From contig NZ_OX296583.1 in NCBI RefSeq assembly GCF_946463545.1, positions 1,558,902 through 1,622,901 on the forward strand: a DNA stretch of 64,000 bases. The letters run 5' to 3'. This DNA comes from Methanothermococcus thermolithotrophicus DSM 2095. GTDB lineage: Archaea; AGJL01; Methanococci; Methanococcales; Methanococcaceae. This document shows positions 5,112-54,447 of the stretch, piece by piece (the first letter of the stretch is position 1; each line of letters starts with the position of its first letter). The notes under the pieces were generated by a model. It had not been told where the DNA came from. It searched no databases and saw only the letters and a program-made list of their open reading frames with translations. The position numbers and the translations under genes were made by a program.

Positions 5112-5178
5112 ACAAATAAGCATATAAATTAATTAAATTGAAATCTCTTTGAGATTGTAGCTCTTCGATGGTGATATA

Positions 5179-19105: not shown

Positions 19106-19444
19106 TATAGTATCGGACATAACAAACTTAACACTACCAGTCATAAAGCTGACTAAAATATACTTCTCGACAAAAACCTTTGGTTTAGTTGAATAATCTA
19201 CGATTATTCAACTTCCCCGCAACTATGTTGCGGTGGATTGTGAGTCTCGACAAAAATTCTTCGAATTTTTGTGAGTCAGCAAATTTCTTTGAAATTTGCT
19301 TCGACAGCGAATCTTCGATTCGCTTCGACTTAACGAAGTTAAGAAGTATCCGGTTTTGGAATCGGAGTGAGCGAAGCAAACGGAGAGTTACAAAAATTAC
19401 TTCGTAATTTTTGTTCAATCAAAACCTTTTTCTAAAAGGTTTTG
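19106..19444. repeat. Palindrome array 1
   Basis: A gene-free stretch of ~460 bp with a head motif TATAGTATCGGACATAAC (from 19106) and at least nine perfect palindromes, each with a 3-nt centre. These are 19174-19186; 19187-19213 (arms AGTTGAATAATC); 19217-19233 (CCGCAAC); 19250-19272 (ACAAAAATTC); 19278-19300 (AGCAAATTTC); 19306-19324 (AGCGAATC); 19329-19343 (CTTAAC); 19390-19414 (ACAAAAATTAC) and 19420-19444 (CAAAACCTTTT). Spacers reuse TCGAC, GAGTC and GCGAAGC. Open frames across it on both strands are by-products of the palindromes, not genes. Confidence 0.85.
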
Positions 19445-24241: not shown

Positions 24242-24522
24242 AAAGCCGTTGGCTTTCGGAGTGAGCGAAGCAACGTTATAAAAACCCAACGGTTAAACAA
24301 AAACTCTTCGAGTTTACGAAAACCTTCGGTTTTCGAATCCAGTAGGTTTTGTAGCCCACCACTATCACCGAGCGAAGCGAAGGTGAGCTACATCCACCGC
24401 AACATAGTTGCGGGGAGGTTGAATAATCGTAAATTATTCAACCAATCCGAAGGATTTGTTCAATCGTGGTAGTTTTCAAAACCCTTAACGGGTAAAGATA
24501 TAAAATCACGAAGTGATTTTAT
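24242..24522. repeat. Palindrome array 2
   Basis: The ~465-bp gene-free region between rpiA and the FKBP gene carries palindromes with 3-nt centres. They are 24242-24256 (AAAGCC), 24301-24315 (AAACTC), 24317-24335 (CGAAAACC), 24397-24413 (CCGCAAC, the stem of array 1 in opposite orientation), 24417-24443 (GTTGAATAAT, one arm base mutated), 24444-24456 and 24500-24522 (ATAAAATCAC). The spacer GAGTGAGCGAAGC recurs from array 1. Arms GTAGC/GCTAC enclose a GCGAAGC-rich block at about 24351-24392. Confidence 0.8.
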
Positions 24523-24551
24523 TTAATCTCGGCGGAATGTTATAATGATAA

Positions 24552-52896: not shown

Positions 52897-54447
52897 TTAA
52901 ATCACCTTATCCAGCAAAGAGACAATATTCATTACATCTATATCTTTTTCTAAATTATGCTCTTTTTTAAACTTCTTCAAACTATCTCTAACATGATACT
53001 CACAAAATGGACAGACCGTTATAACGTAATCCACATCTATATCATAAATCATCTTTGCCTTCCTACTTCCTATGGCAGATGCAACCTCAGGTTTTCCACT
53101 TCTAACTCCTCCACCTGCACCACAGCACTGGTCAGGAATTTCCATTTCAACAAATTTCAATTTTGGAATACTTTTTAATATCTTTCTAGGTTCCTTGTAT
53201 ATTTTCTGACCTCTTCTCAAGTGACATGGGTCGTGGTAGGTTACTTTTAGGTCAATAGGTTTGTATTCAATAAGCCCTACTTTGTTTATAACTTCGGTAA
53301 TGTCCATGACTTTAAATTCCTTCTCTTTGTAATCATTTTTTAAAGTACTTCCACAGCCTGCACAGAGCGTAACTACTGCATCAACGTCCAAGTTGTTGAA
53401 TGTTTCCAAATTCTGTTTTTTTAGCATTTCAGCTACATCAGTTTGTCCGGTTCTTATGCATGGAGACCCACAACAGACCTGATTTTTTGGAATTATAACG
53501 GAAATCCCGTGGGCGTTTAAAACCCTTATCGCACTTTTACCAACTTCCTGAAGCCTATAGTCAATTAAACATCCTGTGAAAAATGCAACCCTCATTTTTT
53601 CATTTTTCTCATCTTTGAGCAAATCTCTTCGGGATTTGCAGCTCTCCGCTCCTTCGGAGCTCCGAACAAGGTATTCCCCGCCCACTTCTTCTAAAAACGG
53701 TGTGGTTTCTTTTATTACTGATCTTTTGCCTATTAAAATATTTTTTCTGACTTCTAAATGACTGTCTAAATTATAACCTTTTTTAAATGAGAGCTCCCTC
53801 AATTTTTCAACTGCATTGTGTACAATATCTATTTCTTTTGGGCAGACCTCTACACATTTCCCACATGTCGTACAGTTGTAAAGGTTTTCGAAATATGCTT
53901 CCTTTTCTCTTTCAGCTTCATCTCTTGGATCAAAGGCAAATCTTGCAAGCTGTCTCATGAAGGTAGGTCCTGGATAATCTGAGAATTTCCTTGCTGGACA
54001 CATTGAGAGACAGCTCAGACAATCGATACATCCTCTGACTTTTTTAAAATCTTTTATATCGCAGGGATAAATTTTATCCAGTATTTCCAGTTCATCTAAC
54101 TTTTTGGTATCCTGTTGTGAGTAGTTTTCAACATAATTTCTTAAATTACTCAATTTTTTATAATACGGCGTTCTATCCACAATTAAATCTTTAACAACAT
54201 TGAATCCTCTTAAAGGTTCAATTGTCATTCCATCCTCTACTTTAGTTTTACATGCGAGCTTTGGTTCTCCATTTATTGTCATTGCACAGCTCCCACACTG
54301 CCCTGCCCTACATGAGGCCCTAAAATGAATGTTTTTATTATAGGTTTTGTTAATGTACTCCAAGGCATCGATTACAGTTAATCCTTCTGGAACTTCGTAT
54401 TCTTCAAAACCATTTAATCTCATAACTTTAATTTTTACGGCTTTCAT
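52897..54447 (-). CDS. tfrB: CoM/CoB thiol:fumarate reductase subunit B
   Basis: A 516-residue iron-sulfur subunit that reduces fumarate with coenzyme M and coenzyme B. An N-terminal 2Fe-2S domain (CRAGQCGSC then C in KLACKT) is followed by two 4Fe-4S sites (CIDCLSCLSMCP and CTTCGKCVEVCP) and two CCG heterodisulfide-type domains (CCGSPCIRTG, CCGAGGGVRSG). Between the second cluster and CCG domains, about 19 residues (VRSSEGAESCKSRRDLLKD) are encoded by two palindromes of the dispersed family at 53619-53660, apparently an in-frame insertion. No tfrA is adjacent. Confidence 0.93.
   Translation of the reverse strand: MKAVKIKVMRLNGFEEYEVPEGLTVIDALEYINKTYNKNIHFRASCRAGQCGSCAMTINGEPKLACKTKVEDGMTIEPLRGFNVVKDLIVDRTPYYKKLSNLRNYVENYSQQDTKKLDELEILDKIYPCDIKDFKKVRGCIDCLSCLSMCPARKFSDYPGPTFMRQLARFAFDPRDEAEREKEAYFENLYNCTTCGKCVEVCPKEIDIVHNAVEKLRELSFKKGYNLDSHLEVRKNILIGKRSVIKETTPFLEEVGGEYLVRSSEGAESCKSRRDLLKDEKNEKMRVAFFTGCLIDYRLQEVGKSAIRVLNAHGISVIIPKNQVCCGSPCIRTGQTDVAEMLKKQNLETFNNLDVDAVVTLCAGCGSTLKNDYKEKEFKVMDITEVINKVGLIEYKPIDLKVTYHDPCHLRRGQKIYKEPRKILKSIPKLKFVEMEIPDQCCGAGGGVRSGKPEVASAIGSRKAKMIYDIDVDYVITVCPFCEYHVRDSLKKFKKEHNLEKDIDVMNIVSLLDKVI
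53619..53660. repeat. Two palindromes inside tfrB
   Basis: GCAAATCTC-TTC-GGGATTTGC (53619-53639; 9-bp arms with one G.T) and GCTCC-TTC-GGAGC (53648-53660). Both have the 3-nt TTC centre typical of the intergenic arrays. They preserve the tfrB reading frame. Confidence 0.75.

Follow-up and report, generated by a model that had tools for sequence, protein, structure and literature searches.

A small palindromic repeat, apparently non-autonomous, has very probably spread through the genome of Methanothermococcus thermolithotrophicus DSM 2095, and one copy appears to have inserted in frame into tfrB, where it would be tolerated and read as ~19 extra residues. Repetition of the element, its in-frame position in tfrB, its absence from the orthologues and many parallel cases in other genes were all observed. 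An earlier note on this DNA had described two palindromes inserted in frame in the gene, encoding about 19 residues between the ferredoxin and CCG domains, and both palindromes were confirmed, in frame, within an open-reading frame of 516 amino acids in the window (the whole 64,000-nucleotide stretch that was analyzed). Rather than separate insertions, as had been supposed, they form the two halves of a single ~52-nt unit, which is repeated whole elsewhere.

The insert in tfrB

The product of the host gene fits a TfrB-like protein, as judged by its Pfam domains, Fer2_3 (14–95), Fer4_8 (137–206) and two CCG stretches, and by orthologues that are 61–79% identical to it. The insert lies past the Fer4 domain and ahead of the CCG part, and this placement, together with a 19-residue gap in relatives, bears out the position and length first proposed. 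By plain DNA similarity, which is independent of any model of the element, the tfrB copy matches another site in the genome over 52 nt with 90% identity (E = 2.6e-14). It also scores 80 bits (E = 1.7e-28) against R1, a covariance model of the element whose building set included this copy. When the window was shuffled 100 times with dinucleotides preserved, nothing equal to hairpin 1 arose, even at a tolerance of 3 mismatches. When folded as single-stranded RNA, the element formed exactly two hairpins, with a stability that was only modest relative to shuffled sequences (z = −1.8), and the evidence for the element is therefore its repetition and covariation rather than its energy.

Table 1. Features of the tfrB locus and other matches to the element in the window
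Feature	Position	Strand	Basis
TfrB-like host gene (thiol:fumarate reductase subunit B, with 2Fe-2S, 4Fe-4S and CCG domains)	52897..54447	-	ORF, Pfam, orthologues
Insert of ~19 codons, VRSSEGAESCKSRRDLLKD or close to it (±2 codons at the ends)	53612..53668	-	gap in relatives; DNA-level comparison
Whole palindromic unit (TTGA, hairpin 1, spacer AGCTCTCC, hairpin 2, TCCGAA)	53615..53666	+	90%-identity repeat; R1 match
Hairpin 1, GCAAATCTC-TTC-GGGATTTGC, 9-bp stem, sequence varies among copies	53619..53639	+	pairing retained despite changes
Hairpin 2, GCTCC-TTC-GGAGC, 5-bp stem	53648..53660	+	
Second element copy	19363..19418	-	R1, 36 bits
Weaker, diverged copy	24475..24526	-	R1, 25 bits
Related sequence, short or incomplete	5138..5175	+	R1, 20 bits

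An alignment of TfrB homologues, the check proposed in the earlier note, found none that carries the residues, and the objection that they might be native sequence present in close homologues failed. Every one of the other 21 family genomes has the 19-residue gap at the insert site, as do five named Methanothermococcus contigs. Relatives read EY(I/L)V-ENEKMRVAFF or similar, with gta gaa aat gaa aaa atg as their DNA across the site, while M. thermolithotrophicus reads EYLV-RSSEGAESCKSRRDLLKDEK-NEKMRVAFF. Because all 21 genomes are without them, the alignment identifies the ~19 residues as an insertion and not as native protein. Natural differences in linker length would favor residues native to TfrB, palindromic in the DNA by chance and lost from the relatives, but this explanation is scarcely credible given that the 52-nt DNA recurs in unrelated genes and at intergenic sites with 87–90% identity and that the residues are missing from the 21 other genomes. 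Three genomes (G005–G007) carry ~30 extra residues of unrelated sequence in the same linker. As a result of this variation, the insert can be delimited only to within ~2 codons; the element unit accounts for 51 nt of the 57-nt difference, and the other 6 nt may be ordinary linker variation. The same variation in length among relatives would explain why an insert is tolerated at this linker.

We infer that tfrB received its copy on the branch leading to this organism, after the split from the other sampled genera, and that the repeat is moved as DNA by some activity. The copy has no stop in the frame used (five of its six frames are open), its length keeps the frame, and its site is the length-variable linker between the 4Fe-4S and CCG domains, features that together would account for its being tolerated and read as ~19 residues. 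The peptide is presumably translated and retained in a TfrB that still works. Removal of the insert by RNA or protein splicing before TfrB matures has next to no probability, as 17–19 residues fall far under intein size, an Rfam search at the tfrB locus gave no intron match and no relevant match of any kind (best E = 0.98), and a comparable Rickettsia insert has been reported as translated (PMC2229807); apart from intein-like stretches in some host genes of this genome, no support for splicing was found. A search of the PDB returned no chain with the TfrB insert, TfrB itself or three consensus peptides, and an AlphaFold model of TfrB built on six sequences was too poor (mean pLDDT 52) and was discarded.

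A repeat family within and between genes

Model R1 was built from six copies, two rows of which had been edited manually, one losing a base pair and the other being truncated; its E-values are rough and the copy counts depend on it. In the M. thermolithotrophicus genome (G000), 69 matches at E ≤ 1e-5 were found within and between genes, and plain BLAST located six further genomic sites of the tfrB element. The species assignment agrees with the HdrB sequence of G000 (G000:C1:1247560-1248435; L240:961-1836), which, compared by eye, matches PDB chain 5odc_B, a protein of M. thermolithotrophicus. Copies are ~45–57 nt long, with a majority form close to TTGAACAAAATCCTTCGGATTTTGTAGCTCTTCGCTTCGCTCCGAT, a variable first hairpin and a second hairpin in several versions. 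Many are intergenic, some of them in arrays, and others are read in frame, in an orientation and frame that differ from host gene to host gene. The encoded peptides (RSSEGAESCKSRRDLLKD, IGAKRRATNSEGICSI, ESERSEELQNSKSFVR and IEQNSSSFVALRSFGAP) are wholly different, since the frame and strand in use vary, and four of the six frames of the majority 46-nt form are open. The conserved entity is the DNA architecture, not the peptide.

In addition to TfrB, at least eight conserved genes carry an in-frame copy where their orthologues are gapped, bringing the set to nine: those for a HepT-like protein (17 inserted residues), BioF (15), CobN (13–15), a YgiQ-like radical SAM protein (15, with the gap in one orthologue), HemC (~15), CofD (~19, neighboring copy included), and, each with two copies, a polyferredoxin (30) and a corrinoid-protein activator (27, the site being empty in the Methanotorris-type genome G021 and the insert shared with G009). 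The tfrB case is thus not rare, as had been proposed, given that many genes of this genome carry a copy. Cases in Hef, PolB, MCM, CofG, Fd289 and MTase were left out of this set on account of variable linkers or N-termini or an uncertain start codon, as was the MBL case, in which the flanking alignment was poor. One weak R1 match (1099112) was first read as an insertion and proved on alignment to be native sequence; it serves as a control.

Lengths of the in-gene copies were divisible by three in 9 of 9 cases, compared to 13 of 30 outside genes (p = 0.002), a result that is partly true by construction because a frame-breaking copy would not appear within a long open-reading frame. Two element copies at G000:C1:176757-176916 disrupt the frame of a HepT-like gene, a likely pseudogene, which is expected if only frame-keeping copies survive in genes that are needed. 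A copy in a 155-aa HepT-like protein (L002:1501-1552) keeps the frame and splits the R-X4-H motif (R | NAIVH), and the putative RNase may be inactive through this split; the gene adjoins a nucleotidyltransferase-like ORF. Two acylphosphatase-like genes (L071:1501-1546 and G000:C1:1672696-1672742), the second of which is truncated, have a copy at the same position just ahead of the VQHVGFR loop.

Among the 36 genomes of the order, which a phylum-wide search returned unchanged, R1 matched 17 at E ≤ 1e-5, with 27 matches in G016, 17 in G009, 14 in G021 and 10 in G025. Methanotorris- and Methanocaldococcus-type genomes were matched, and the seven genomes of genus g2 (Methanococcus) gave no match at this threshold, which doubles as a composition control. 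At E ≤ 0.01, 15 copies were found in G025, which we take to be Methanocaldococcus jannaschii, at least one of them in frame in a helicase-like ORF (L114). G010 has an in-frame copy at a GMP-synthase-like C-terminus, and G009 has one (G009:C1:551314) in an ORF resembling a fragment of a DDE transposase. In another helicase-like gene, the element and its flanks are identical between G000 (G000:C1:1458441-1458496) and G009 (L134, G009:C1:95642-95697), which suggests that this gene was recently transferred between the two; its protein has more palindrome-like residues in its intein-like part.

Hairpin variation and mobility

Stem pairing was compared among 66 parsed copies, which have 39 different 5′ arms. 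Stem cells were paired in 600 of 605 instances, compared to 502 ± 7 when arms were exchanged between copies, and in 132 of 132 for the gene-borne copies; the absolute figure is inflated, given that selection by R1 rewards pairing, which does not by itself explain the excess over exchange. Pairing retained despite sequence change is what would be expected of an element kept for a role in DNA or RNA, such as an mRNA stability hairpin, a terminator or a protein-binding site, with the peptide as a by-product. We consider this unlikely, however, as copies point either way with respect to genes, occupy coding as well as non-coding DNA, and are missing at the same site in relatives, and as the same covariation is predicted by DNA-level palindrome correction or by recent spread.

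The BioF gene provides an empty site at the DNA level. G000 reads gatttaat-[45 nt]-agaagaag, and its closest relative, G016, with 93% identity in this region, has gatttaatagaagaag. An element sits at exactly the same BioF codon, with the same orientation, in G000 (L048) and in the distant G033 (L256) and G028 (L257), that is, in two archaeal families, and the site is empty in 19 other aligned genomes, including close relatives of each occupied one. The inserts are 45 nt long in G000 and 51 and 57 nt in G033 and G028. In the latter two the second hairpin is almost the same, while the first hairpins differ and have the loop flipped (ACAAAACC-TTC-GGTTTTGT and ACAAAAATTAC-GAA-GTAATTTTTGT). The corrinoid activators of G000 and G009 have the first hairpin in common and a different second one. 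These patterns suggest either repeated insertion at a favored site or replacement of hairpins in place. Three G000 copies (1670899, 135904 and 1412668) have a common stem, ACAAAACTC/GAGTTTTGT, around a loop that is TTC in one and GAA in the other two, the pattern that an inversion of the hairpin's inner part would leave.

We raise, as a possibility that is less likely than not, that the repeats are also remodeled in place, a whole stem being swapped for another perfect stem, sometimes with the loop flipped from TTC to GAA, while the frame is kept. If so, a palindrome-preserving process in Methanococcales, whether a dedicated enzyme or the template switching or inversion of DNA at hairpins, would keep rewriting short peptides in conserved proteins.

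A target-site duplication was considered for these insertions. Identical TTRA-like 4-mers flanked 8 of 35 copies on both sides, compared to 5.0 expected by permutation (p = 0.07). A 4-nt TTAA duplication was suggested on inspection, the right flank being TTAA in 10 of 35 copies, but was not significant on left/right permutation (p = 0.07–0.08), and the flanks of the YgiQ, HemC and CobN copies do not fit. The BioF empty site, compared with G016, permits at most a 3-nt AAT repeat.

REP sequences and bacterial MITEs are likewise small, probably non-autonomous hairpin repeats that occur in many copies and in arrays. Mobilization of the element as a REP sequence by a REP-associated Y1 tyrosine transposase (RAYT) is nevertheless highly improbable: no Y1_Tnp domain (PF01797) was found in this genome, in a search whose positive control matched in 5 known genomes, and no constant GTAG/CGTC tag occurs among the copies, even though one variant ends in CACTACG, which is GTAG on the other strand. 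Of the two features of MITEs, terminal inverted repeats and a duplicated target site, neither could be clearly made out in the archaeal element. A palindromic repeat, spread by some other activity and carried along in genes where it keeps the frame, remains our preferred explanation.

Relation to known palindromic repeats

The parallel with Rickettsia palindromic elements (RPEs; Ogata et al. 2000/2002) drawn in the earlier note is sound, in that a palindromic repeat lies in frame in a conserved gene; both kinds are dispersed, occur intergenically and in frame in conserved genes, and encode an apparently tolerated peptide. RPEs, at ~105–150 bp, combine terminal inverted repeats with a long stem-loop (PMC2229807) and encode a conserved peptide (PMC10969869), whereas the archaeal element is ~45–57 nt, with two short hairpins, a hypervariable first stem, several frames and unrelated peptides, and belongs to another domain of life. 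On its size and architecture it is not an RPE proper, a distinction made by description and not by sequence. Its occurrence at many unrelated loci, in frame where orthologues are empty, places it among protein-coding palindromic repeats of the RPE-like kind. The Wolbachia palindromic elements (Ogata et al. 2005), compared by description, are likewise protein-coding palindromic repeats, but from a bacterium.

A precedent exists in the archaea, and the suggestion that the tfrB case might be undescribed there does not stand: palindromic repeats of M. jannaschii, some of them fused in frame into protein genes, were reported by Suyama, Lathe & Bork 2005 (FEBS Lett 579:5281), as cited in PMC2229807 and PMC2996958. 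These elements, known here by description, come from the same archaeal order and resemble ours in being palindromic repeats with in-frame gene fusions. Presumably the ones named MJRE1-3, they are reportedly ~100 bp long on average and inserted into genes in only three cases. The gene insertions in the single M. thermolithotrophicus genome are far more numerous. The two are likely one family, because R1 matches the genome taken as M. jannaschii. Literature searches of open-access scope returned no report of such an element for M. thermolithotrophicus, which is weak evidence of novelty. In-frame coding palindromic repeats were thus already known from Rickettsia and M. jannaschii; what is new is the scale, the clean empty sites, the occupation of one BioF codon in two families and the apparent replacement of hairpins in place.

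Protein-coding palindromic repeats, reported in a few cases from M. jannaschii, thereby prove to be pervasive in one archaeon that can be cultivated. Enzymes of M. thermolithotrophicus are natively purified and crystallized, making translation, retention and relevance of the peptides, as well as movement of the repeat, directly testable. The recurrent occupation of the BioF codon and the changing hairpins at common sites bear on how short peptides are added to conserved proteins.
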